Assembly (NCBI GenBank): GCA_025435555.1
Contig: JAIWWG010000009.1
Coordinates: 543,804 to 607,803, forward strand
Source of the DNA: Chytriomyces cf. hyalinus JEL632
Lineage: Eukaryota; Chytridiomycota; Chytridiomycetes; Chytridiales; Chytriomycetaceae
Direction: 5' to 3'
Length of the DNA stretch: 64,000 nt
The notes under the pieces are model-generated. The model was given only the letters and a program-made list of their open reading frames with translations. It did not search any database and was not told the DNA's origin. This document shows positions 387 through 53,101 of this stretch, in pieces (the first letter of the stretch is position 1; each line of letters starts with the position of its first letter). Both the position numbers and the translations under genes were made by a program.

Positions 387-1910
387 TTAATGGTCAAGCT
401 CTTGACCCTCCAACCATCTTTCAGCATCCAAAGCCGCCATGCATCCACTTCCCGCAGCGGTTACTGCCTGACGGTACGTATGGTCCTGAATATCACCTGC
501 AGCAAAGACTCCCTCGATGTTTGTGTAAGTGCTTGGGACGCCCTGGTTCGGGTATGTCTTGATGTAACCCGTCTCATCCAAGTCGAGCTGCCCAACAAAC
601 AAATCCGAGTTTGGCTTGTGTCCGATCGCGTAAAACAGGCCGTTCACATCCAAGGTAGACCTCTCTTTTGTCACCGTGTCCTCAATCACGAGCTGTTTCA
701 GCAAACGATCACCCTTCGCTTCGATGGGCACCTTGTTCCACAAAACCTCCACTTTGGGGTGCTTCAGCAAACGATCCGCCATGACTTTCGAAGCACGCAG
801 TTTGTCTCTACGCACAAGAACGTACACTTTGGATGCGTATTTGGTGAGGAACGTGGCTTCCTCGGAGGCAGAGTCTCCACCACCAACAACGACGAGAGGT
901 TTGTTGCGGAAGATGGGGACGGCGCCATCGCAAACGGCGCATGCACTGATTCCAGCCTGCCAGAATGTATCTTCGCCGGCAATGTAGAGTCTTTTTGCGG
1001 TTGCGCCTGTTGCGATCACGACTGAATCGGCAAGAATCACGTCCTGTTTTATAAATCGGGGAGCAGGAGAAAACAAAAGGTGTGAGGAAAAAACGCGGGA
1101 AAAACAAGGGTGAACTAATTATAAGCCCGCGGGCAAAACACTCACAGCAGCAGCTTCATACCCTTCCCTCCAAAGCTTAAAAGGTCTCTGCGACAGATCC
1201 ACTTTCGAGATGGTTTCCGTGACGATCGTTGTTCCAAACTTGAGAGACTGCTTTCTCATTTGGTCCATGAGTTCTTGGCCTCCCATGCCTGGATTATTTG
1301 TTGAAGGGCGTTTAGCATGTCAACAACACGGAAGAATATTCGATTCGTTTTTTTACCATCTGGGAATCCAGGGAAGTTTTCGACATCGGTGGTTGTGGTC
1401 AGTTGGCCTCCGGCGGCGACACCTGATGTCAAAATGGGAAATAGGTCAGTAATGATTTCAAATCGGGAATTGCATCATCGAAACGGGAGGCCAACGATCA
1501 GAGTATTCCCCGCTGCTGTTCGGCAGAATCACACTCTTCACATGATGGGTTGTTGTTATCGGGAATCCTGATGAGCAGCGGGGGAATATGTAGGGGGGCC
1601 ATGGAAATGCGGAGTAGATAACGGGAGGGAAAGACGAACCGGCAGCGAGAAATCCTTCAAACATGACCGGGTTCAAGTTTGCACGTGCCAAGTAGACTGT
1701 TGATAAAACAAAACATGCGCGCTTAGTTCTAGACTAAGGTTTAGACGGCAGTGGACGGGCATTAACTGGCAGCGGTGTGTCCGGCTGGGCCTGAACCTGT
1801 TTATTAACGTAGAGAAGCGTGATGCGATGAGTGATCTCACTGGCTGAGAAGGATCAAACGTTTTCTGTACCGATGATGACGACTTTGTGGTGTGCTGGGA
1901 TTGGTGCCAT
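387..1910 (-). CDS. TRR1: Thioredoxin reductase (NADPH), low-Mr type
   Basis: This gene encodes the flavoenzyme that transfers electrons from NADPH via FAD to thioredoxin. A six-exon model, complement(387..1043, 1146..1288, 1357..1422, 1640..1696, 1767..1796, 1871..1910), gives an uninterrupted 330-aa protein, the usual length for fungal enzymes. Visible signatures are the N-terminal FAD motif [14 protein letters not shown] assembled across exons 1 and 2, [17 protein letters not shown], the redox-active CAVC, the NADPH-binding [12 protein letters not shown], and the C-terminal FAD loop GVFAAGDI. Exon 2 is only 30 nt. All introns are GT-AG. The start at 1910 is the first ATG before the FAD motif. 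It is divergent from the RNA methyltransferase at 2271, with 360 bp between the start codons. Confidence 0.95.
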
Positions 1911-2270
1911 TTTTTGTGAAAGTTATCTTTTTCAAATGCGAGGTGAGCATTCGATATCAGCGAGTTTCAAGTTTAAACGCGGAACAAGGGGAGCCTGTTC
2001 AGGGAAATTCCTTGCTCCGTATGGAGGGAAGCGCGCTGAGAACCGTGTTCAGTCCGTACGTGATCACAAGGTGTCCGTAGGCCTCCAACGAGGGTGGGCT
2101 TCGGACAAGCGCGAATTCTTTCTTTGGAGACTTCCGGACTTTTCCTTTTGACACATATCGGACGCTTGGGGATTGCATTTTTGCTTTAGATAGTGCCTGC
2201 TTACAAGGCAAGATATAATGCCGGACAAGCGGAGAACAGCGTTTTTTGTTTTTTATTCCAACAAATCAGA
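1911..2270. promoter_or_regulatory. Shared intergenic region between divergent TRR1 and NSUN-like genes
   Basis: The 360 bp between two divergent start codons must hold both core promoters. I see no clear TATA box. Several frames are open across it on both strands, but none shows conserved content. It is treated as regulatory by position only. Confidence 0.4.
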
Positions 2271-30560: not shown

Positions 30561-33191
30561 CTAGGCAGTAATGCTTTCTTCGCCAAAAGCGCGACGACAG
30601 TCTGTGAATTTCGTCGATCCAACGCCTTTTGTAAGAATATCAGCCCACATAAGAGGGTCGGGGCAGTGGCCAACAGTAATAAGGTTCTGACGAACTTGAT
30701 CCCGTAGAAACGCATACTTGATGTCGAGGTGCTTGGTTTTGTGCCTGAGTGCCCCCTCCTCCATGTTAAAGACTGCCCCTTTGTTATCAGTCCACACTTG
30801 TGACGGCACTTCCTGCGGATGACCCAACCATTCGAGCATGTTTCGAACCCAGATAACCTCTTTCACCAGGGAGCATGCAGCAATCACTTCAGCAGAGACA
30901 GTCGAGTCAGCAACTATTGGCTGACGCTTGCTGAAGCTAAGAACTGCTGATGTCCCTACACGAACCAAAACTCCTGTTGTTGACCGCCAAGTGTTTACGT
31001 CACCAGCAAAATCAGAATCTGAGTATCCCTCCACCACCAGCTTGCGACCAGTGCGTTTGAAACATAGACCGTGATCTCGAGTGTTGTTGAGATATTCGAG
31101 TAATTCCTGAGCAGCTTTCCAGTGGATGATTCGAGTATTAGTTGTGTGTCGCGCTAGCTTTCCCACAGCATACTGGATGACAGGGCGAGTCACAGTTAAA
31201 AATTGGAGTTTGCCCACTAGTCTGAAATAATTGCGGTCTTTCATGAAGTGGAGGTCATCGTGGCTCGGATCACACACTGCATCAAATTCCTTGTCGTTTA
31301 CTGAGCGATAGGGCTGGGTTCGCCTGCCGTATGGGTTTTCGAGGAATTCATCCAGAATGTTCTCCAGATAAGCAGCCTGGTTGAGTGTGGCTTGCCCTTC
31401 CTGGAACCTGAATACAATACTGATGAACTGATCCACCTTGGGCTTGACTGTCATCTTGAAATGCTTGGTCCCGAGGTCCGAGATGAGTTCGTCCAGCTCT
31501 GCCTGAATCTCCCGATCTGCTGCCCACGCAAAATCATCTGCCCATACCAGCACCAATATGAGCCTTTCCACTCCCTCTTTGACAATCACCTTTTTGAAGA
31601 TCATTGGTTCGTGTGGACATCGCTGCATTCCCATCATTTCCAAAGCCTTGTCCCGTTTGAGTTCCCATTGCCTCGAAGCCTGCTTTTGCCCATACATGGC
31701 TTGCAGCAACTCCAACACCTTTCCCTGGTCTTCTGGAGCCACCTCCATTCCCTGCGGTATCTTAATGTGCATAACGCGATCTCGATCTGCCACTAGGTGA
31801 GCCCCCATAGCATCTGATTGCCTTGTCACCATTTTGCGCTCCACCACTTCCACTGTCCACAGTTTGAGGGAGTGCATGTATGGAGTTGAAGCATGAGTCT
31901 TGTCGTAGTCTTCGCCGGCCACTTGTCTCCTACCGTCGAGGACCAGACGAGCTTTGTACTTGGTCTCCCCAGTGGTGTCATCCTTCTTGACTTTTAGAAC
32001 CCAGATGGTGTTGAGAGTTTTCGCCCCCTTTGGCAGCCTGACTAGCCGCCAGACTTTGAGACCCCAGAACTGATCTAGCTCCTTGTTGATGGCTTCCTTC
32101 CACTTGGGGTCTTTGAGTCCCTCTGAAATGCGTGGGCCATTTAGAGTTGACAGTGCAAGTTGGTTGTGATTTCCCACTTCTTCTAGAGTTCCGTCTGTGA
32201 CGGACAAAAGTGCCTCTCGTTCTTCATCTGAGAATCCGTCATTCCCGAGCGTACGGCTCCATGCGGGCATCGGTCCAGTGCGAGATCGTGTTGCGCGGGG
32301 TGCAGGTGTTGGAGTTGGTGGGGCGCTTCCTTCCGATTGAGTGCCCGAATCCTGCTCGTCCTCTGTGAACAGCTCGTTGAATGGTGTTACTGGTCCATCA
32401 TTTCCCCCTCGTTCAGATCCAAATGCTGTGTGGTACTCAGATTCAGGTGAGTTCGGCAAGTCCAGGCGTGGAGGGGATTCGCTATCGATATCCTTTTCAC
32501 CCCCTTGACTATTTTGTGTTGAGTGGTGTTCAAAAATCAGAGACTGAGATTCCGGATTATTTCGAAGAAGACCCCAGTTTCGACGTTTTTTGAGGTTTGT
32601 TGAAATCGCCTCCGGCGCTTGGGGAGCTCCATTATCGTGGCGAAAATCGGCCCAGGAGAGAGTCTTGACTGGATTGTGGAGAGGATTCACATTGCTTGGG
32701 TCAAACTGATCCTCTATGAAGGCCACATCTCGGCTGACCACAACAGAATAGGGATCACCATCTCGAGTGAGAATGCGATAGCCTGGGTTTTCACGTCGAG
32801 GTTGCCATGGATAGTTAGAATGACCAATGTATCGGCCCTTCACTGCTCGGGGACTCGATTTGCCCTCTGTGCGATTCTTTGGAAGCTCGTATGCGTACGC
32901 AACACAGAAAAGCGTCTTCAGATCACGAACTGTTGGCTTGGATCCAAATAGAGCTTCGTGTGGTGTGATGGTATCCTCTTTGTGCAGAAAAGAATTGTAG
33001 ATTTCAGCTTGGTGGTTGAGACCATCAACCCAGAGATTAGTTGGAGCATTTGCCTGGATGGTCAAAGCACGGTGTCTGTCCATGGCAATGCGGTGGTATC
33101 CCTCTTCCATTCCAAGTGACTGAGGCTGTTCTGTCCCCGTGTTGACGTACGAGACTCCACTCTCTCGGCATGCTTCAAGAAACCAAGTTGG
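30561..33191 (-). CDS. Copia Pol: C-terminal integrase, reverse transcriptase, RNase H
   Basis: The frame is open from the nonsense codon at 33192 to the TAA at 30561 and continuous with the upstream Gag-PR-INT frame. It starts with the rest of the integrase core, then NLWVDGLNHQAEIYNS and a GSKPTVRDLKTL C-terminal integrase segment. The RT begins near FWGLKVWRLV, has the catalytic aspartate in SDAMGAHL and AMYGQKQASRQWE, and the YxDD box reads WADD (LVLVWADDFAWAA). RNase H shows GYSDSDFAGD and QVWTDNKGAVFN. No frameshift occurs over ~876 codons. An internal start at 33110 is possible but not meaningful for a polyprotein. Confidence 0.9.
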   Translation of the reverse strand, partial: PTWFLEACRESGVSYVNTGTEQPQSLGMEEGYHRIAMDRHRALTIQANAPTNLWVDGLNHQAEIYNSFLHKEDTITPHEALFGSKPTVRDLKTLFCVAYAYELPKNRTEGKSSPRAVKGRYIGHSNYPWQPRRENPGYRILTRDGDPYSVVVSRDVAFIEDQFDPSNVNPLHNPVKTLSWADFRHDNGAPQAPEAISTNLKKRRNWGLLRNNPESQSLIFEHHSTQNSQGGEKDIDSESPPRLDLPNSPESEYHTAFGSERGGNDGPVTPFNELFTEDEQDSGTQSEGSAPPTPTPAPRATRSRTGPMPAWSRTLGNDGFSDEEREALLSVTDGTLEEVGNHNQLALSTLNGPRISEGLKDPKWKEAINKELDQFWGLKVWRLVRLPKGAKTLNTIWVLKVKKDDTTGETKYKARLVLDGRRQVAGEDYDKTHASTPYMHSLKLWTVEVVERKMVTRQSDAMGAHLVADRDRVMHIKIPQGMEVAPEDQGKVLELLQAMYGQKQASRQWELKRDKALEMMGMQRCPHEPMIFKKVIVKEGVERLILVLVWADDFAWAADREIQAELDELISDLGTKHFKMTVKPKVDQFISIVFRFQEGQATLNQAAYLENILDEFLENPYGRRTQPYRSVNDKEFDAVCDPSHDDLHFMKDRNYFRLVGKLQFLTVTRPVIQYAVGKLARHTTNTRIIHWKAAQELLEYLNNTRDHGLCFKRTGRKLVVEGYSDSDFAGDVNTWRSTTGVLVRVGTSAVLSFSKRQPIVADSTVSAEVIAACSLVKEVIWVRNMLEWLGHPQEVPSQVWTDNKGAVFNMEEGALRHKTKHLDIKYAFLRDQVRQNLITVGHCPDPLMWADILTKGVGSTKFTDCRRAFGEESITA

Positions 33192-35342
33192 TTAATTTTC
33201 ACCGCCTTTGTCAAGGGACCATGATCTGAGCTTTTGTCCAGTAGTTCTCTCCAACCATTGTTTTGACCACTGATACAGCTTGGCAGCTTTGGCTTTGCTG
33301 TCAACTCCAAAGCCAAAACGATATCCTAACGCATTTCTGACCGTGAGAGTCAGATAACAGCTGCTCCCCCCAAGTGACTTGTTGTTGTGTGAGAACACCA
33401 TCAGATCTGCAGTCACGACTTCGAGCAGTTTGTCCGGCAGGTAACGCGCACCTAGAGATCGTGGGTGTGGAAGCCGGTACATCTTGGCCAGGACACAAGC
33501 TTCACAGTTGCACGCCACTTCTGTATCATCGGTCTTGTCTGATAGCATGAGATCCAGACCGTCTGCAGCTGCAAGCCGAAATGTCTGTTCAAGAGCCTTG
33601 TCTCCAATGTGGGTACGATTGTGCCATACAAGGTTCCTTGTCTTCCAAGATGGAGCAACCACTAGCGCTGGTTGAGGGGAATGCTTGATTGTGATGGGAA
33701 ATAACCCTCCCTTTTTGAAACCTTTTGCAAACACTTGTCGTGGTCCATCTGCCGGGAAATATCCAATGCTTGCACTCATGTCAGAGTGATCAAACAAGAC
33801 ACTGTACTTGTTCTTGGTAAGGACGTCGTTGACACTTAGCAGATTGTGGGTGGCATGTGGTGTGTGCTCGATGGGAGGAGTAGTGTACACTACTGGAACT
33901 GCTGAGGTGCCTGATATAGAGCCCTCACGACCGCTCCCTGCAATCCTGCCCCCATTTATCCCACTCCATGTTGTAGGAATGCAAGGTGTTTGTGCAAACG
34001 CTGGATGGTTTCCCAGTGAACCTGATGCTGCTGAATCCAGATTGAGCGTGATTGGGTCCTCCCTTGAAATGGACAGAGCATACGCATCCATGTTGTTTAT
34101 TGGGAGAAACACGAAACCCAAAGCTTGATTAGCAACGCCTTGCTTGGGCTGGTTCCCACGATTTTCCGACTTGACCATGACCACTGGAACGTTTTCTCCT
34201 GAAGTCCGTGGAAATGCCAGATTCTTGCACCCAATGGCTTTTGCTGCTGCTTCAGCACTTTCAAAAGTCACCCAGGCCAGTCCTGACGGCTTTCCATCAG
34301 ATCTGGTACCAATAGAGATGCGTGTCGTTGGTCCGAAATTTTCCATTGCTGCTTTGAGAGTCTCCTCTGAGATATTCCACGGCAGCTGACGAACAAACAC
34401 TTCATTTTTATCCCTCTCTCCCCGGCTTGCCGGCACCATCCAAGTCCCACCAGCCGGATTTCTTGAACGGGTCCCAACTTTTGAGGCAGCACGCTCCACC
34501 TGAAGTGCCGCTCCTGATACCAGAGAGTCCATCTCCCCACGCTGGGCTTGGACCTGACGAATTTCTGCTGCCTCGAATTGCAAGAAAGCCTTCATAGTGG
34601 TCACAGTCTTGCAGGGATTTGGTGTGCCATCATCCTTGAGGTTTCGAAGAAACTTGTCCTTGTACACTTTGAAGTCTTCTTCTTTGAGTCCGAAACGCAG
34701 ACGATTTCCCCACTCAAGATGTTGGGCCTCACGACCAATCGCATCTGGGAAACCATAACGAGCAAGACGGATAATGAGATCATCAGCTTGCACCATATAT
34801 TCCAGTGGCGTCTCATGTGGCAACTGTGTTATTTTGATGAGCTTCTCACGGAGCGTGTCGATCATGAGCTGCTTGTCATGATTGATTTCCTGCATTAAAA
34901 CGTCCCAGCGTTGCTTCACTGTCGATGGGCTTGTAGGGTCCTCCATAATAAACTTGGCCAGATCGTCATCGAGATGTTGGCGAACCAACTTGGTGATGTC
35001 TGCTTGGATGGATCTGAAGCCCCGAGCCTGTGTCATGAAATCGCTATTGTCCTCTGCTTTGGCCTCACGAGCAGGGACATACGACAAATTCAACGCCGGA
35101 TTTGGCAGCTGCTCGGCTCGGGCAACAACAGCAGGCCGTGCGGGATACTTGTCTTGGAGTGGAGCCGGCATGTCTCGATGGATGAAATCCGTAATGTCCA
35201 GTGGATCCCCATGTCTGTATCCTTTTGGAAACTCGATGGCTGAGTTGAGTTCGAGAAACAATTCCGCCGCCCATTTTGGAAAGGCTTCGATGCCGTCTTT
35301 TCGGGTAAGGAGGTTGATTTTGTTGGTCGGCTTGGGTGCCAT
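33192..35342 (-). CDS. Copia Gag-protease-integrase N-part, with an RRM in Gag
   Basis: The 716-aa frame starts at the ATG at 35342 and ends in TAA at 33192-33194. Gag shows a UBN2/DUF4219-like helical region (LREKLIKITQLPHETPLEYM). Where copia Gag normally has a CCHC zinc knuckle, this one has an RNA recognition motif of ~75 residues: RNP2 EVFVRQLPWN, then RNP1-like SGLAWVTFESAEAAAKAI. The protease active site is NLDSAASGS. The GAG-pre-integrase zinc motif is NLVWHNRTHIG...CNCEACVLAK, and the integrase core has TADLMVF and LDKGGEN. The terminating TAA lies in the middle of the integrase catalytic core, so it is a disabling mutation rather than a programmed boundary. Confidence 0.9.
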   Translation of the reverse strand: MAPKPTNKINLLTRKDGIEAFPKWAAELFLELNSAIEFPKGYRHGDPLDITDFIHRDMPAPLQDKYPARPAVVARAEQLPNPALNLSYVPAREAKAEDNSDFMTQARGFRSIQADITKLVRQHLDDDLAKFIMEDPTSPSTVKQRWDVLMQEINHDKQLMIDTLREKLIKITQLPHETPLEYMVQADDLIIRLARYGFPDAIGREAQHLEWGNRLRFGLKEEDFKVYKDKFLRNLKDDGTPNPCKTVTTMKAFLQFEAAEIRQVQAQRGEMDSLVSGAALQVERAASKVGTRSRNPAGGTWMVPASRGERDKNEVFVRQLPWNISEETLKAAMENFGPTTRISIGTRSDGKPSGLAWVTFESAEAAAKAIGCKNLAFPRTSGENVPVVMVKSENRGNQPKQGVANQALGFVFLPINNMDAYALSISREDPITLNLDSAASGSLGNHPAFAQTPCIPTTWSGINGGRIAGSGREGSISGTSAVPVVYTTPPIEHTPHATHNLLSVNDVLTKNKYSVLFDHSDMSASIGYFPADGPRQVFAKGFKKGGLFPITIKHSPQPALVVAPSWKTRNLVWHNRTHIGDKALEQTFRLAAADGLDLMLSDKTDDTEVACNCEACVLAKMYRLPHPRSLGARYLPDKLLEVVTADLMVFSHNNKSLGGSSCYLTLTVRNALGYRFGFGVDSKAKAAKLYQWSKQWLERTTGQKLRSWSLDKGGEN

Positions 35343-35399
35343 GTTTTGATGTTTCGTTGTGGTTCAGTGCTCAATCAGTGACTGTTCAGACTCTTAATC

Positions 35400-38881: not shown

Positions 38882-39164
38882 TTCTTTTGATAAACCGGGT
38901 TTTGAAGCGCATTTATGGGTATAGCTGTGATGGGGTAGGAGATGGAATATAATAAATGGGACAAGTAGTTTTTGTGTTTGTTCTTGGGGAAGAGTCAAAC
39001 AACACGTGTTTTTGTTCAGAATGCAGTGAGTGCCCTTTCTCCGATGAAATGAAACAAAGATTCACAATTGGTTGTTGTTTTCGTTCCGATTGCCGTTGTA
39101 AATTAGCCGCGTTCTTATGCCTTTGACTCGTAAAAAAAACAAAAGCAGGGTTCACTAGGAAAAA
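38882..39164. other. 3' flank of xylulokinase / left edge of the small-protein array
   Basis: No additional gene is supported. The left-most array promoter starts at about 39165. Confidence 0.4.
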
Positions 39165-39194
39165 TTAGGGTTTCCAAAACTGACATCATAAAAG
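39165..39194 (+). promoter_or_regulatory. Array promoter 1: TTAGGGTTT element plus TATA-like box
   Basis: ttagggttt at 39165-39173 precedes cataaaag at 39187-39194, about 90 bp before the ATG at 39284. The same pairing recurs before the other array genes. Confidence 0.6.
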
Positions 39195-39283: not shown

Positions 39284-39445
39284 ATGCCAGCACTCGTCCA
39301 AAACACCATTGTCAGCAATGAAGTTACTGCTACTGCTACTGCTGTCCAAACCTCCAAGCCTACCAGTCCCTCAGAGACAAAGAAAATGACAAAGCCAAGG
39401 GCCATTTGGGTTGACACGGCGTACCTTGGATCCAAGTTTCTTTAA
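39284..39445 (+). CDS. MPA small-protein family, divergent member (53 aa)
   Basis: An intronless ORF starting MPALVQN and ending YLGSKFL. It shares the MPA start, a Ser/Thr/Ala/Lys-rich middle and an aromatic...KF-hydrophobic end with the array genes downstream, but is otherwise diverged. There is no signal peptide or TM segment, and it has a high Thr/Ala content. The leader is A/C-rich (caaccaaccaacaac), typical of well-translated fungal mRNAs. Function is unknown. Its reality is supported by the conserved ends and by the TATA/AGGGTTT promoter, not by length. Confidence 0.65.
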   Translation: MPALVQNTIVSNEVTATATAVQTSKPTSPSETKKMTKPRAIWVDTAYLGSKFL

Positions 39446-40020
39446 AACATGCAGCAGGGGCATGTTCCAGCTCTCTTTAGTCTTATTCTTTTTTCGTTCA
39501 AATAAACCGATCGCTTGTACATTTTAAACAAATCTGCTTCATTTGCGACGTGTGATTTGTGTGTAGATGGTGTTGGTGTGAGGTGTACAGGTTCTCATAT
39601 GGTGGTGACGTGACGTGCGGAGAGGGTGGTGCTACCTGGTTAGTAGCCAAGTTGGTCCCCGCGCTTGTTACCAGGGTTGCGAGGCCATACAAGTGCTCAT
39701 GATACCGGGAATACCCGGCAGTTGTTTGACCCAGCAATCCAAGTATGCAGCAGCCGTCGCTGCTAGCTGGTTTGTACCCTTGTGCGGTTGGTCCCCTCGC
39801 TTTTAGCCAGGGCGCTGAGGGCATGCACTCTAAAGTGCTAATAATATCGCGTCGTACTGGTTCAAGCAGTTCCTTCAGATCAAAATAGTGTCGGATCGGA
39901 TGCGAGTAACGATGACTGTGCGACCGACAAATTTTTTCCCTTTTCCGTCCAATCACAGATGTTGCATCAAACACACCCACACACACACACAAAAATACTG
40001 ACGTGTCCAGCTGCGTCATT
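39446..40020. other. Spacer between array genes 1 and 2
   Basis: About 575 bp. It contains a weak internal repetition: taccaggg...gctg-type segments near 39640-39690 and 39765-39815, both with ggttggtcccc or gttggtcccc. A (CA)n run lies at ~39970-39990. No gene is seen. Confidence 0.35.
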
Positions 40021-40030
40021 GTTTGAAAAC

Positions 40031-40068
40031 GAGGGTTTTTCCCCCCCAGGAAAGAAACGAGTATAAAA
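40031..40068 (+). promoter_or_regulatory. Array promoter 2: GAGGGTTTTT element plus TATAAAA
   Basis: gagggttttt at 40031-40040 is followed by TATAAAA at 40062-40068, about 63 bp before the ATG at 40131. Confidence 0.7.
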
Positions 40069-40130
40069 GGAACCCCGGATTTGACACTGCTCCCACCAAA
40101 CAAAACACGCCTTTAAACACTCACCAAAAC

Positions 40131-40322
40131 ATGCCTGCTCCAGTCGAAAACGTTCCTTACATGGATGCCGTCACCGAGTTGAAATCCGCGGCCAAGCAAG
40201 CTACTGCCGTCGTTGCTGTTGTTGAACCTGCTGCTCCAGATGCGAAGGAGACTGGCAAGAAGGAAATGAAGCCGGCTGTATTTACTGCAAAGACTGCGTT
40301 CCTGGGGACCAACTTTATCTGA
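40131..40322 (+). CDS. MPA small-protein family, member 2 (63 aa)
   Basis: An intronless 63-aa protein starting MPAPVENVPYMDAV and ending AFLGTNFI. It is intermediate between the divergent members and the four near-identical ones downstream: the first 13 residues match the core family nearly exactly, the middle is Ala/Val/Lys-rich and diverged, and the C-terminus keeps an aromatic-rich ending with NFI instead of NKFI. No export signal is present. A strong TATA box and an A/C-rich leader with caaaac before the ATG suggest high expression. Function is unknown. Confidence 0.78.
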   Translation: MPAPVENVPYMDAVTELKSAAKQATAVVAVVEPAAPDAKETGKKEMKPAVFTAKTAFLGTNFI

Positions 40323-40714
40323 GAGTGGAGGAGAATTTGTTCCTTTTTTTTTGTTTGCTGCATCTCCCATTTTCTTTTTGTTCCGCACGCGTATCCTGTG
40401 CAGTTTTACATATAGCAAAATAAATCAATATTGAGTCAAGTTAAACTGCATTCATTGTTGCTTATTCCATCTCGGAAGTGGATGTCTTATTAACCTGTGC
40501 TGCGTGGATCAAGAAGTACCACCTTCCGCACCGGCAGTCACGGTCCGTTCAAGTTGTTGAAGGAAGGTCAACATGCCCAAATCGCAGCGCCGCTACCACA
40601 ACGTGCTCTGACTCACAGCACTCGTACAAGTTACACGTGTACTTCAAGAAGTTGCGGGAGAATTGATTGGAAGAGAGAACCTTTGTGAAAACCGGCGCTT
40701 TTCGCCTTCAAAAA

Positions 40715-40860
40715 TCAGGGTTTCTCAACAAAAAAAAAAAAAGCGGAACTCAAAGAACGGCCCTCCTCCTTTCCCGACTCCGAGATACCCTCTCCGACAG
40801 CTGAACTTCCCAGCTAAACCAGGGTTCCTTCTTATTCCGACGAGGAAGCGCGGTATAAAT
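40715..40860 (+). promoter_or_regulatory. Array promoter 3: TCAGGGTTT, CCAGGGTTCC, TATAAAT
   Basis: tcagggttt occurs at 40715-40723 and ccagggttcc near 40819, with TATAAAT at 40854-40860, about 64 bp before the ATG at 40924. A ccgactccgagatacc block (near 40776) also occurs before members 5 and 6. Confidence 0.7.
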
Positions 40861-40923
40861 ACGGGCATGATGGTACCCTTTTCAACCCATCAACTTCAAC
40901 CAACAAAACATTCACTCGTAAAC

Positions 40924-41118
40924 ATGCCAGCCCCCGTTGAAAACATTGCCTACATGGAAGCTGTGGAGCTCAAGCCTACCACCCAGCAAATGAAAGCTGC
41001 CGCCGCCGCTACCATGAAGGAAACCGCCTCCGTCGAGAGTAGCAAAAAGACCACCACCACTGTCAAACCCCAAATTCTTGATAGCCAGGCAAACTACTTT
41101 GCCAACAAGTTCATCTAA
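40924..41118 (+). CDS. MPA small-protein family, member 3 (64 aa)
   Basis: Core family member, intronless. It begins MPAPVENIAYMEAVELKP, continues TTQQMKAAAAATMKET (likely an amphipathic Ala-rich helix), then a Ser/Lys/Thr-rich hinge, and ends QANYFANKFI. It is very similar to members 4, 5 and 6, with differences concentrated in the hinge. The protein is predicted to be cytosolic: no signal peptide, TM or Cys. The conserved ends with a variable centre suggest selection on both termini. Downstream AATAAA elements lie near 41191. Biological role is unknown. Confidence 0.82.
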   Translation: MPAPVENIAYMEAVELKPTTQQMKAAAAATMKETASVESSKKTTTTVKPQILDSQANYFANKFI

Positions 41119-41570
41119 ACGGAACATACCAATTTTCACTTGCTTTCTCTGTTAAAGCATTCTCGCATATACTGTTCACTCGTGGCATAAACAAATAAAT
41201 TACAAATCATTTACCGTACACGCTTGTTCTTCTGCTCCAATTACAAGATATAGTCTTGCACTGGTACTGTTATTTTTGCGGGGCTGCGGTTTTCTTGACG
41301 GTTCTCGTTGCACAGATTTCCAGCACGCGTTCTATCAGCTTGTGACTGTGGGTATCACTGTAGCTTTGAGTCTGACCATATTGATTGAGCCGCATCATAT
41401 TAAGGCAGTTTGGCGGTCTCTGACCAGGATAGCGTCATAACAAGGCGTTCCACGTTTTTATTTTATTTTTACAGATTAATCTTGATAACAAACAAGGGTT
41501 CGTTCTCCTTCATCCCACACTTTCCAATGCATGCCCCCGTTAAAGCCCCGCCTCAACCGCGACCAAAAAA

Positions 41571-41613
41571 CCAGGGTTCTTTTCCGAACATTCACAGGAA
41601 AGCGAGTATAAAA
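41571..41613 (+). promoter_or_regulatory. Array promoter 4: CCAGGGTTCT plus TATAAAA
   Basis: ccagggttct at 41571-41580 precedes TATAAAA at 41607-41613, 61 bp before the ATG at 41674. A second partial element, aagggttcg, lies at about 41493-41501. Confidence 0.7.
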
Positions 41614-41673
41614 GCAGCACCAGATATTTCACGGTCAGAATCACCAAACCAACCAAACATCCAAGACGCAAAC

Positions 41674-41865
41674 ATGCCAGCCCCTGTCGAAAACATTGCC
41701 TACATGGAAGCAGTCGAGCTCAAGCCTACCACCCAGCAAATGAAAGCCGCTATCGCTGCTACCATGAAGGAAACCGCCTCCGTCGAGGGTAGCAAGAAAA
41801 CTCAGAAGCCGCACGTGCTCGTCGCAGAGACCCAAGCTGGCTACTTTGCCAACAAGTTCATCTAG
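41674..41865 (+). CDS. MPA small-protein family, member 4 (63 aa)
   Basis: The first ~42 residues are almost the same as in member 3 (MPAPVENIAYMEAVELKP, TTQQMKAAIAATMKETASVE). It then diverges (KTQKPHVLVAETQAGY) before returning to the invariant end YFANKFI. The ending is thus kept although the preceding hinge differs. Intronless, no Cys, no membrane segment. Tandem duplication with ~0.75-0.95 kb spacing between starts explains the arrangement. Function is unknown. Confidence 0.82.
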   Translation: MPAPVENIAYMEAVELKPTTQQMKAAIAATMKETASVEGSKKTQKPHVLVAETQAGYFANKFI

Positions 41866-42381
41866 AACGGAAAAACATGCCCATTTTCATTGCTGAGCAT
41901 TTTCGCATTACCGCATAAAATAAATTACAACTCTGTCATCGTAATTGCTGTGTTCGTCTTGTAATGGTTGCTCTTGGTCTCTCATCTCCTGTATGAAAAC
42001 AGGGCCGCCAAGATTCTGGCGTGAGAAAGCTTACGGCGCGCTTTTGCGTGGGGGCCAAGGCACCAAGTTTCACTGCTAAGACAATGTTTCTAGTCGCCTT
42101 TTCTTTTTCGTCCGCAAGTATTCTTGTGGTCACATGTTGGCAAAATATATCTGTTGGGCCACAGTCTGAAGACGTCCATTGCTCATGATTTTCCTAGTAG
42201 GATATTGAATTTTATTTGAGTCAAGAAGTACTCCGGTTCCGCTATCCTTCCAAAGAGGCATCCAAGGCCGGTGAAGATGCTCGATGGAAATCACGCGTGC
42301 CCCAAACCGGCAGCAACATTGCCGCGATAGCCTGTTCTGACTCACAGCACGCGCACATATTGAGTGCAGCATGCCGCAAAA

Positions 42382-42519
42382 TTAGGGTTTCCTCCAACGG
42401 AACTCAAAAAAAAAGGACGGGCAGCGGACCCCTTTCCGACTTCGAGATACCCTTCCGCCTTTCCAATAGCTGAACCTCCCGCAAAAGCAGGGTTCTTCCT
42501 GAGGAAACGCGGTATAAAT
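42382..42519 (+). promoter_or_regulatory. Array promoter 5: TTAGGGTTT, GCAGGGTTCT, TATAAAT
   Basis: ttagggttt at 42382-42390, gcagggttct near 42487 and TATAAAT at 42513-42519 precede the ATG at 42586. The layout closely matches promoters 3 and 6. Confidence 0.72.
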
Positions 42520-42585
42520 ACCGGGCATGACGGCTCTCCCTTTTCTACCCATCAACTCAAATCAAACAAACAACCACTCGCAAAC

Positions 42586-42774
42586 ATGCCAGCCCCCGTC
42601 GAGAACATTGCCTACATGGAAGCTGTTGAGCTCAAGCCTACCACCCAGCAACTGAAAGCTGCCGCCGCCGCTACCATGAAAGAAACGGCCTCCATCGAGA
42701 GTAACAAGAAGACCACAGCCAAGCCCCAAATTCTCGACAGCCAGGCAAACTACTTTGCCAACAAGTTCATCTAA
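42586..42774 (+). CDS. MPA small-protein family, member 5 (62 aa)
   Basis: Core member: MPAPVENIAYMEAVELKP, TTQQLKAAAAATMKET, hinge with ESNKKTTAKPQ, end ANYFANKFI. Compared with member 3 the hinge is two residues shorter, and M-to-L and V-to-I substitutions occur in the helix. Even the 3' UTR is similar to that of member 3 (gttcactcgt.gcataaacaaataaat), showing that the duplicated unit includes promoter, ORF and terminator. Function is unknown. Confidence 0.82.
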   Translation: MPAPVENIAYMEAVELKPTTQQLKAAAAATMKETASIESNKKTTAKPQILDSQANYFANKFI

Positions 42775-43409
42775 ACGGAAAACACATACCCATTTTCATT
42801 TGCTTTCTCTGTTGAAGCATTCTCGCATATACTGTTCACTCGTAGCATAAACAAATAAATTTACAAATCATTTCCCCTATATGCTGCGTTCTGGATTGGT
42901 TCAGGCCGTTATCCGAAGGCTTTCAAGTTGCGGATCTTCTGGCTGGACAGTCGCCCCAGATTTCCAGCACATGTGATGGCTTATTGTGTGCTTTCGTAAG
43001 GTGTCACTCTTTTTATCGCGGTAGTTCGAAAGTTGTGGTTGTCTCTATCATCTCATGGCAGTGGACATTGCCGTTCAGATCCCATGCGTGTTTTTCTGAG
43101 CCTGCTTGTGTGCAGTAAAATAAATCAATTGAGTCAGCTGATAAGCAGTCATGGTGTTGCTCGTGAGTTTCCGTATTGGATATTGGATTCACGGTGTTGC
43201 GCGTGGAGTCAAGAATGTGCTCCCACTCCGTCACTCTTCCAATAAAAAGGTGTTGAAGAAAGGTCAATGTGTCGAGGCTGCAACAACGCTACCGCGATAA
43301 ACAGTTCAGACTGACAGCACGCGCACATATAAAGTGCACGCTGTTGCGGAAGCGGGAAAAATGATTGGGAGAGAACTTTGTAAAAAACCGGCGCTTTTTG
43401 CTTCAAAAA

Positions 43410-43532
43410 TTAGGGTTTTTCAATAAAAAGGAATCCTTTCCCGACTCCGAGATACCCTCTTCAGTGTTTCCGGCAGCTGAACTTCCCACCAAACCAGGGT
43501 TCTTTTCTGGGACGAGGAAACGATGTATAAAT
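43410..43532 (+). promoter_or_regulatory. Array promoter 6: TTAGGGTTT, CCAGGGTTCT, TATAAAT
   Basis: ttagggttt at 43410-43418, ccagggttct near 43494 and TATAAAT at 43526-43532 lie 65-190 bp before the ATG at 43597. Confidence 0.72.
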
Positions 43533-43596
43533 ACGAGCACCACGGCGCCTCCTTTTCGACCCATCAACTCCTACCAAACCAACATCTGTCGCAAAA

Positions 43597-43785
43597 ATGC
43601 CAGCCCCTGTCGAGAACATTGCCTACATGGACGCTGTCGAACTCAAGCCTACCACCCAGCAACTAAAAGCCGCTGCCGCTGCTACCATGAAGGATACCTC
43701 CTCCGTCGAGAGTGGCAAGAAGACCACCGTCAAACCGCAGATTCTTGATAGCCAGGCAAACTACTTTGCCAACAAGTTCATTTAG
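43597..43785 (+). CDS. MPA small-protein family, member 6 (62 aa)
   Basis: Core member: MPAPVENIAYMDAVELKP, TTQQLKAAAAATMKDTSS, hinge ESGKKTTVKPQ, end ANYFANKFI. The substitutions relative to member 5 are conservative (E/D, A/S, I/V), consistent with purifying selection rather than decay. Intronless. It is the last core copy before the DUF2235 gene, which starts 214 bp downstream on the same strand. Confidence 0.82.
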   Translation: MPAPVENIAYMDAVELKPTTQQLKAAAAATMKDTSSVESGKKTTVKPQILDSQANYFANKFI

Positions 43786-43999
43786 ATGCTTAACGGTTGA
43801 CGGAAGAAGTTGCATATTTTCATTTCTAGCACAACGAGCATAATCATAATAAAGACTGGAGCTTTAGAGAACTGCGCCTGTCCTATCAATAGCAGCGATG
43901 TTCGCAGAATATTTACCGATTTTAATAATTATGACCTGGCATGCGCTCTGTCAAGTTTAATTTTTAGAGCGAAATCGTTTCAGTCCGCCAAACAGAAAG

Positions 44000-45633
44000 A
44001 TGGGCTCCAAGACCTTTCTTGCGTATGTGACCATTGCCCTGCTGGGTTACATCCTCGCGGCCAATGCGTTCTGGGGCATTGGAGTCGGTGGCAAAGAGAG
44101 AGAAGTCAGTGCTTCCCCCTTCCTGGAACCAGCCTCGTGTCTAACCCGCCATCCAACTCACGCAGCTCCCCAAGTTGACGGTTGAACCCTTCGATCCAGT
44201 CCTGGACGCGCATAAAATTGCTCAGTCGGATGCATTTGATGCGCCCATTGGTGGTGGCCGCCGCCTGATCGTGAGCACTGAACTCGTCTTTGTTGGATCC
44301 CTTTCTCTTTGTTGCTTACACCCTTGCTCCCCATGGGAACCCGATAGGTCTGCTTTGACGGATCTTGGAATTCTCCCGGATCTCTTTCTGACACGCATTC
44401 ACTCGGTGGAGTCAAGCTCACGGCGTCTCTTGTCCCATCAAATGTTGTCAAATTGGCATACCTGCTCGGAAGCGGCAAGAACCAGTTTGATCCTACTGCG
44501 GATCCGGTTCATACTGAGTTCCAGAAGGTGTACTACCACTCTGGTGTGGCCACAGAGATCAAGGATCAGAAGAAAGCAGAGTTGGAAGGTTCGAAATTAA
44601 CAAACAGCCGCCCCCCCACTCCGCGCTTCAATGTTCAATTTTTTGACGCTCACTCAATTGCGCAGGAAACTTTGGAAACATCCACGATCACGTTCTTGAT
44701 GCGTACGCTTGGCTTGCGAGCGAGTACAAGGCCGGAGATGAGATTTCTGCGTTTGGTTTCAGTCGTGGATCCACGATTGTCCGCTCACTGTTCTCTTTCA
44801 TTCGCTTCGCTGGTCTCGTCGATTTGAGCAAATTCCCGAACCACGCTGATGTCGTTTCCAAGGTGCTAACTGCGTACGACCTGTACAAGACACGCAAAAT
44901 TGACGAATCGGATTACTCTGACCGTGCGTTGGAATTCAAGTACAAGTACTGCCACGCCAATGTTGCTCTTAAGATGATTGGAGTGATGGACACTGTCGAA
45001 GCGCTTGATGTTCCCGACAATTACAGCAAGGTTGTGCCCTCGTGGGTCTTGACTGAACTCATTGAAGCCACGGGTGCTATTGAGGAAAACGATTACCACG
45101 ACTTGAATATTGGATACGATGTTGAGCATGCATACCACGCCATTTCGATCGATGAGGCGCGCGAGTACTTCCCGGTGACAATGTTTGAGCGCTACGATCC
45201 CGCCCGAATGCCCGCCACACATGTTCGTGAGCAGAAATGGTTCCGCGGTGGACACGGAGATGTTGGTGGTGGTTGGTGGGAGTCTGGGTTGAGTGACATT
45301 GTGTTGGATTGGATGATTGAAAAAGCGCGTGCTGCGGGGCTTGTTGTTCGCGACCGATCTGAGTTTGACGCGCATCTGTCGCCGTTGTTGTTGGGTATCT
45401 CGAAGGAGGATTATGTGTCCAAATCTGCGGTTGTGAACCACGACTTTTTCGAGTGGATTGGATCCACTGACGGTGAGAGCCCGCAAGGACGCAAGATTCC
45501 TCGAGACTTGAAGGGACGTTACATGGACCCAAGCAAATATGCGCCTTCTGAGCTTCACGAATCTGTGTACCGTTTGTTTAAGGATAGCCCAGTTCCAGAG
45601 AACTTGAAGGCTGTGTTGGAGAAGGAACCTTGA
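44000..45633 (+). CDS. DUF2235 (T6SS phospholipase Tle1-like) hydrolase with N-terminal hydrophobic anchor
   Basis: Four exons (44000..44104, 44166..44270, 44348..44588, 44666..45633) encode 472 aa. The N-terminus contains a hydrophobic stretch (TFLAYVTIALLGYILAANAF), either a signal or an anchor. The alpha/beta-hydrolase DUF2235 domain begins with LIVCFDGSWNSP, includes NVVKLAYLLG, and has the nucleophile motif GFSRGST (GxSxG with Arg). It then shows CHANVALKMIGVMDTVEAL and EQKWFRGGHGDVGGGW, which carries the conserved catalytic-region His/Asp. In bacteria the family includes phospholipase effectors; in fungi DUF2235 proteins are common but uncharacterised. It lies inside the MPA small-protein array, between members 6 and 7. 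Confidence 0.87.
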
Positions 45634-46095
45634 TTTGAAACTACTCTTTTTTTTTCTTTCTGTTTCTGTTTCTTGTTTTTGCCCCACCCCACTCTGAACA
45701 GAACCTCTTCTATCGATCGATCGCCTTTACAAATAAATATCCTTCCTCATCGTCGCGTCAATTGGTCAAACATTGCGGGTGATGCGATCGCAGTAGTTCA
45801 GAAGTGGTTGAACCTTGACCAATAACGTACAACAAAGACCCATGTCACCACACATCCAACTTCTCAAGTCATCAGCTGTTGCCACGTGTTTTTGATTCCC
45901 TCTGACTGTTCGCTTCCAGTTTTACCCGATAAAATCAAAATTGTTTTGTCAGCAGAAAATAATTGGGCAAAAATTGGGGTTGGGTCCTTATCATTTGTTT
46001 TGCGGGCAACGGACTTCGGGATCGGGAAGCGCTGTCGGAAAGGGCGAAGCGATCCCGTTCACTCCCACGTCCCATATCGATCCACGCGGAAAAAA
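45634..46095. other. Spacer between the DUF2235 gene and array member 7
   Basis: 3' flank of the lipase-like gene, with aaataaat at ~45731, and the far upstream region of member 7. No gene is seen. Confidence 0.4.
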
Positions 46096-46130
46096 TGAGG
46101 GTTTCTGTCCCACCCTCAAAGCGTGTAAAA
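46096..46130 (+). promoter_or_regulatory. Array promoter 7: TGAGGGTTT plus TGTAAAAG
   Basis: tgagggttt at 46096-46104 precedes a degenerate TATA box (tgtaaaa, 46124-46130), about 60 bp before the ATG at 46189. Confidence 0.6.
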
Positions 46131-46188
46131 GGGGCCCGCTTGGGTCTGCTTGTCGTGACTACGAACAACTACCAAAACATTCACAACA

Positions 46189-46344
46189 ATGCCAGCCATT
46201 ACAAGCACCCCAGTCACTGCCACCCCAAGCGCCCAGGAAATCAAGGCTGCCAAGACTGCCAGCATTGCTAGCAAAGCTACGTCAATTGTCACTCCAGTCC
46301 AGAAGCCTCCCATGATGAGCGAAGCGCCAGTCTGGTGCATTTAG
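46189..46344 (+). CDS. MPA small-protein family, divergent member 7 (51 aa)
   Basis: An intronless 51-aa ORF starting MPAITSTPVTATP, with AQEIKAAKTASIASKAT in the place of the Ala-rich helix of the core members and a distinct end, PVWCI. Membership rests on the MPA start, the same position of a Q/K/A helix, size, A/C-rich leader and the shared AGGGTTT promoter. The Cys sits at -3, so it is not a CaaX box. Function is unknown; it may be only distantly related. Confidence 0.55.
   Translation: MPAITSTPVTATPSAQEIKAAKTASIASKATSIVTPVQKPPMMSEAPVWCI

Positions 46345-50681: not shown

Positions 50682-53101
<2,420 letters not shown>

Follow-up and report, generated by a model that had tools for sequence, protein, structure and literature searches.

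The final 64 kb of contig JAIWWG010000009.1 of the chytrid Chytriomyces cf. hyalinus JEL632 (the window hereafter, 64,000 nucleotides (nt) at the end of a 607,803-base contig in a genome of 37.8 Mb and 242 contigs) contain seven tiny genes of what appears to be a lineage-restricted small-protein gene family, which stands out for a promoter common to apparently unrelated tiny genes. From the sequence it is established that the proteins are under purifying selection, that members 1, 2 and the core type are homologous, that the genes have a common promoter, and that the family has a history of duplication, both old and recent, in which some copies decay. We infer expression, stage and function from these features.

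A preliminary description of the window had noted seven open reading frames (ORFs) of 51-64 codons within 7 kb, all on the plus strand, and all seven are present (53, 63, 64, 63, 62, 62 and 51 amino acids). Their coordinates, with the stop codon included, are as follows.

39284-39445, plus strand: member 1, ORF of 53 amino acids, divergent, with the C-terminal motif TAYLGSKFL
40131-40322, plus strand: member 2, ORF of 63 amino acids, intermediate, found by the core query at E 6.6e-4
40924-41118, plus strand: member 3, ORF of core type, 64 amino acids, in the dN/dS set
41674-41865, plus strand: member 4, ORF of core type, 63 amino acids, in the dN/dS set
42586-42774, plus strand: member 5, ORF of core type, 62 amino acids, in the dN/dS set
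43597-43785, plus strand: member 6, ORF of core type, 62 amino acids, in the dN/dS set
46189-46344, plus strand: member 7, ORF of 51 amino acids, second subfamily, with the C-terminus APVWCI and dN/dS 0.25 against its paralogue on contig C164

From member 1 to member 7, successive starts lie 847, 793, 750, 912, 1011 and 2592 nt apart, and a phospholipase-like gene at about 44000-45633 (plus strand) separates member 6 from member 7. Members 3-6 had been called near-identical; identity to member 5 is 94% for member 3, 82% for member 4 and 90% for member 6. The ORF list begins member 3 at ATG 40867, 13 nt after the start of the TATAAA at 40854, and member 4 at ATG 41527, 80 nt before the start of the TATAAA at 41607. 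Because these upstream ATGs sit beside or before the TATA box, the MPA start is likelier for both members, and the extended starts are probably not translated.

The family ORFs are protein-coding genes under purifying selection on the protein, as judged by the ratio of nonsynonymous to synonymous substitution rates (dN/dS). Seven intact core copies were compared in 21 pairs, namely members 3-6 and one copy each on C134, C180 and C164, which are other contigs of the same assembly; members 1 and 2 and a frameshifted C180 copy were left out. Their dN/dS ranges from 0.07 to 0.38, with 20 of the 21 pairs at or below 0.28 and the remaining pair at 0.38. The two shifted frames of the same alignments give the opposite relation, with dN above dS in all 10 tests. 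The earlier suggestion of selection on these ORFs thus passes the test, with ratios far below 1 and shifted frames that behave in the opposite way, and a reading as noncoding or chance ORFs is rejected on these controls. Third-position changes predominate among the copies, and the length differences between intact members keep the frame. Over nine pairwise comparisons, identity is 74-91% in the coding sequence, 59-74% in the 250 nt before the ATG, 51-88% in the first 110 nt past the stop, 53-56% in the spacer at -700 to -350, and 48-73% at +150 to +400. The baseline, measured in the same way on unrelated random sequences, is 53%.

Relationships among the members were assessed by comparing local alignment scores with those of shuffled sequences, for 28 pairs. 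Members 1, 2 and the core are homologous: their three pairwise scores are each unmatched in 2000 shuffles, and for their C-terminal 18-mers 0 of 20000 shuffles reach the score in each pair. The most conserved parts of the proteins are the first seven residues, a KP pair and a C-terminal Y/F-[FL]-x-x-[KN]-F-[IL] tail, the tail being found in the core and members 1 and 2. Member 7 had been placed in the same family, a placement that is tied together mainly by promoter and conserved neighbourhood and fares less well on sequence similarity, which is weak. Shuffles reach its score at a fraction of 0.023 against the core, 0.0135 against member 1 and 0.0645 against member 2, and for its C164 paralogue the values are 0.006, 0.0475 and 0.103 in the same order; because 28 pairs were tested, these likenesses are at most suggestive.

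The array that had been described is real as far as the seven ORFs go, but the family is also dispersed, over four contigs in all, and totals 12 genes, of which 11 are intact. Searched with a core query, the genome yields nine places. Members 2-6 account for five of them, and the other four lie outside the window, at C134:30794, C180:162372, C180:163030 and C164:338703. Of the two C180 copies, the first (C180:162372) is frameshifted near its end, and the promoter hexamer AGGGTT, described below, is absent from its 400 nt upstream. Downstream of the intact C180 copy, at about C180:163671, lies an orphan promoter of member 4 type without a coding sequence, in a stretch that aligns to window 40706-41650 and ends 24 nt short of the ATG of member 4. 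A single full paralogue of member 7 lies at C164:337829-337981 (69% identity), beside the C164 core copy, and on the far side 1851 nt of C164 align at 71% to window 50731-52491, which overlaps an ORF for an AAA/M41 protease at 52083-53087. Core, member 7 type and protease stand in the same order on C164 and in the window, and therefore represent an old duplicated block. A birth-and-death reading of the family is based on contig C180, with its frameshifted copy and its orphan promoter, together with the collinear duplicate on C164. It is unlikely that these contigs are haplotypes of one locus, because dS between core copies from different contigs is 0.33-1.28. A match to member 7 on C192 (18 bits) was dropped, as it sits inside another, longer coding region.

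Before each of the 11 intact family members, a TATA-like box is preceded by AGGGTT on the coding strand. In the window the promoters, all on the plus strand, are arranged as follows.

39147-39172, plus strand: member 1 promoter, two AGGGTT starting at 39147 and 39167 (-137 and -117)
40032-40067, plus strand: member 2 promoter, AGGGTT at 40032, TATAAA at 40062
40717-40859, plus strand: member 3 promoter, AGGGTT at 40717 and 40821, TATAAA at 40854
41495-41612, plus strand: member 4 promoter, AGGGTT at 41495 and 41573, TATAAA at 41607
42384-42518, plus strand: member 5 promoter, AGGGTT at 42384 and 42489, TATAAA at 42513
43412-43531, plus strand: member 6 promoter, AGGGTT at 43412 and 43496, TATAAA at 43526
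46098-46132, plus strand: member 7 promoter, AGGGTT at 46098, TATA-like GTAAAAGG at -64

The same promoter is carried by four tiny genes without a clear sequence relation to the family, on contigs C188, C166, C163 and C1, and the 400 nt upstream of these four and of the 11 intact members were analysed as one set of 15. Twelve of the 15 were found independently of the promoter pattern, and the C166, C163 and C1 genes by the pattern itself. AGGGTT occurs 26 times on the coding strand of this set and twice on the opposite strand, compared to a mean of 1.7 and a maximum of 7 in 300 shuffles. Every gene (15/15) has the hexamer between -138 and -83, where the chance of finding it is about 0.011 per gene (background of 126,605 bases, 23 + 25 sites). 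Among the 11 more divergent upstreams it occurs in 11 and is the most over-represented hexamer, while the best hexamer in 200 shuffled sets reaches 9. Exact TATAAA is found in 9 of the 15 genes and a TATA-like sequence in the other six; in the family genes the box stands about 55-100 nt before the ATG and is followed by a CA-rich leader. The promoters had been described as strong, and their design, with a TATA-like box and CA-rich leader much like this genome's histone H4, agrees with that description. AATAAA follows the stop by 47-96 nt in the family genes, except for the member 7 paralogue on C164, where the distance is 113 nt. The sequence TTCCGA/TCGGAA occurs in 10 of the 15 upstreams, a count that takes both strands without a control, and it is not claimed as a shared motif.

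Histone H4 genes offer a comparison within the same genome, at 13 full-length places (on C151, C166, C188, C1, C38, C221, C90 and C112), all 96% identical to the query. None of the four copies examined has AGGGTT within 400 nt upstream, whereas TATAAA stands at -66 or -69 in three of them. TATA promoters of this genome therefore do not carry AGGGTT as a general rule, and a histone-type regulon is unsupported. Genome-wide, a strict promoter pattern has 10 matches, compared to 3 for a reversed control; these comprise six core or member 2 genes, the three tiny ORFs on C1, C163 and C166, and a match on C200 inside a longer coding region. A looser pattern with ATGNC has 22 matches against 8 in the control, and the 12 beyond the strict set are the C180 orphan promoter and 11 others, which include the starts of transporter-like, dehydrogenase and OPT-like ORFs and several places without a sensible ORF. 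Because longer-gene starts are among them, the combination of box and TATA is not exclusive to tiny genes. The loosest pattern gives 59 matches against 36 in the control, so its matches are mostly noise.

Of the additional tiny genes, the one on C166 encodes 82 amino acids and has a relative on C188 that is 70% identical over residues 11-82 and frameshifted near its start. By the shuffle test, the C166 protein has no significant overall similarity to the family, and its C-terminal likeness gives fractions of 0.015 (core), 0.0037 (member 1) and 0.074 (member 2). The C163 (66 amino acids) and C1 (94 amino acids) proteins have no similarity to the family by the same test.

The family products begin with an N-terminal MPA and have a middle rich in Ala, Lys and Thr, and no signal peptide is seen by eye. 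The core lacks Cys and low-complexity repeats and has a net charge near zero, member 2 is slightly acidic, and the member 7 type has a lone Cys. An AlphaFold2 model of member 5, built with the seven window sequences, has a mean predicted local distance difference test score (pLDDT) of 56 and a predicted template modelling score (pTM) of 0.15, with two short helices (residues 20-30 and 50-58) and no strands; it neither proves disorder nor yields a fold.

Library searches covered Pfam, NCBIfam, the PDB, and viral and prokaryotic sequences. In Pfam-A, five family proteins reached nothing over the cut-off (best E 0.074 for member 1 and 0.41 for member 7, with no match for the other three). The same five had no NCBIfam match at E 10, and the C166 protein had one sub-threshold match at E 0.025. 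A profile of nine core-type sequences gave three non-significant matches among PDB sequences (E 1.2, 1.2 and 4.1). In IMG/VR and GTDB genomes, 116 and 26 stretches matched the pattern and none was confirmed by tblastn at E 1e-3, so a viral or bacterial origin was rejected. The family had been called unrecognised, and it has no relative in the libraries searched. The string MPAPVEN was not found in the literature, which is a weak negative, since papers seldom print sequence. Small fungal developmental proteins such as Con-6 and Grg1 are a comparable case, being short, soluble, lineage-restricted and by repute strongly expressed, but the Pfam scan placed none of the five proteins in these families or in any other.

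The explanation we favour, tentatively and at a little under an even chance, is that of a family evolving by birth and death, whose strongly transcribed genes encode small, largely disordered intracellular proteins that act through the conserved C-terminal aromatic motif. Each gene is a compact unit made up of one or more AGGGTT boxes, a TATA-like box, a CA-rich leader, a single uninterrupted ORF of 51-64 codons and AATAAA. A single factor may bind AGGGTT and co-activate all copies, such that copy number and the common strong promoter would set the dose. The products would remain cytosolic and mostly disordered when alone, the Y-[FL]-x-x-[KN]-F-[IL] motif would dock on a putative partner, and the proteins could then act as abundant, stage-specific small modulators. 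The low model scores are consistent with disorder. Several points weigh against this explanation: low pLDDT may reflect a shallow alignment rather than disorder; the cytosolic location comes solely from reading the sequence by eye; the C-terminal motif is missing from member 7 and its paralogue, whose similarity to the core is also weak; three of the 15 promoter-set genes come from the promoter search itself; and the genes of this set are not independent trials, because they are partly related by descent as near-identical copies.

It is possible, if rather doubtful, that the promoter defines a microprotein regulon, in which one grammar (AGGGTT, TATA, ATG-CC) would drive several unrelated tiny intronless gene families as part of a zoosporic-fungal life-stage programme. 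The families so united would be the core with members 1 and 2, the member 7 type, the C166/C188 type, and the C163 and C1 genes. Other explanations concern the role of the products. Self-assembling structural peptides, produced in quantity for some transient structure (a wall, a plug or a zoospore organelle, for example) and sticking together by their aromatic C-termini, would suit the copy number, promoter design and conserved aromatic C-terminus, but the core has neither Cys nor low-complexity repeat nor visible signal peptide, and the low-confidence model is without strands, which makes this role unlikely. It is about as unlikely that the proteins are zoospore dormancy factors, stored with or clamped on a cluster of resting ribosomes and released at germination. 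Known hibernation factors are small, and the size of the family proteins is consistent with this. The genome also has ciliary radial-spoke genes, and the role is attractive because chytrid zoospores are described as having clustered dormant ribosomes and stored mRNA (PMC8887899). However, no hibernation-factor match was found in Pfam, NCBIfam or the PDB, a core charge near zero with a slightly acidic member 2 is unusual for an RNA binder, and the sequence gives no pointer to ribosomes.

Leaderless secreted or membrane-active peptides, for signalling or against competitors, have a slim chance of being correct: small size, multicopy birth-and-death evolution and the lone Cys of the member 7 type would fit, whereas the low net charge and lack of a signal peptide by eye do not, and arms-race peptides often diversify while this family is under strong purifying selection. 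Slimmer still is the chance that these are growth or S-phase genes with a chromatin role, under a telomere-repeat-binding factor like Teb1. This idea is drawn from fission yeast, where the promoters of core histone genes have an AACCCT box to which Teb1 and Ams2 bind, Teb1 through TTAGGG within it (PMC5128866). AGGGTT is the reverse complement of AACCCT, and the same hexamer thus lies in promoters of short genes in both cases, here in 11 of 11 intact members. In contrast to the yeast case, the hexamer is absent from the four H4 promoters examined of the 13 full-length copies, and it is one-sided, on the coding strand upstream of the TATA-like box of tiny genes. The family proteins, moreover, are not strongly basic. 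That the transcripts act as RNA, with chance or vestigial ORFs, is next to impossible; short ORFs do arise by chance, but third-position changes, low dN/dS, opposite shifted frames and frame-keeping length changes already contradict it.

As a kind of gene cluster, the closest case may be the small-protein gene set of Dictyostelium, a likeness drawn without sequence comparison to hssA. There, genes for proteins of 57-59 amino acids and hssA-related small proteins change together in a mef2A mutant, and many small prestalk genes have neighbouring gene numbers (PMC3640940). In both organisms, grouped genes encode very small proteins of unassigned function, and tandem paralogues under 100 amino acids are found here as well (seven ORFs, 51-64 amino acids, 7 kb). 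The Dictyostelium genes are reported to respond together to one regulator; the organism is a different one, and expression is reported there, while the chytrid genes are known from their sequences.

A zoosporic organism had been presumed, and the genome bears this out with radial-spoke proteins, for which 12 matches lie over the Pfam cut-off. Together with an M36 fungalysin that adjoins the C134 core copy, these genes fit a flagellated fungus. The radial-spoke loci C182:8777-10747 and C231:20298-22286 have nearly equal scores and are recent duplicates or unmerged haplotypes. Also near the C134 copy, a stretch (L018) has two adjacent ORFs, at 53-763 and 1307-2008 (plus strand; 236 and 233 amino acids), that resemble paralogues by eye, with DDLDATL and NDLDATL in their start regions.

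The rest of the window has several features of its own. Part of the phospholipase-like gene (44974-45630, C-terminal) matches PF09994, the T6SS (type VI secretion system) Tle1-like catalytic domain, at E 1.1e-21, and this domain is here encoded in a eukaryotic genome. Between members 1 and 2, at 39651-39827, a 41-nt repeat occurs in two copies (76% alike) at a spacing of 136 nt. Long ORFs at 30561-35363 (minus strand) belong to a Ty1/copia-type retrotransposon; the sole one scanned, 30561-33191 (minus strand), matches RVT_2 and a retroviral polymerase SH3-like domain. Near the contig end (62840-64000), a block of about 440 bases lies in head-to-tail copies from about 62841 and 63285, as seen by eye, preceded by degenerate TTAGGG-like motifs; it is possibly a subtelomeric or multicopy repeat.

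Strongly expressed genes without a name would not be unusual, since in zoospores of the aphelid Aphelidium insulamus 29.4% of the genes expressed at more than 10 times the median have unknown function (PMC11767097). A family that is strongly selected yet absent from the libraries searched marks a gap in the thinly annotated life-stage biology of chytrids. The common AGGGTT-TATA promoter predicts that its genes are co-expressed, and that there are further tiny genes of a size that a length cut-off in annotation would leave out.

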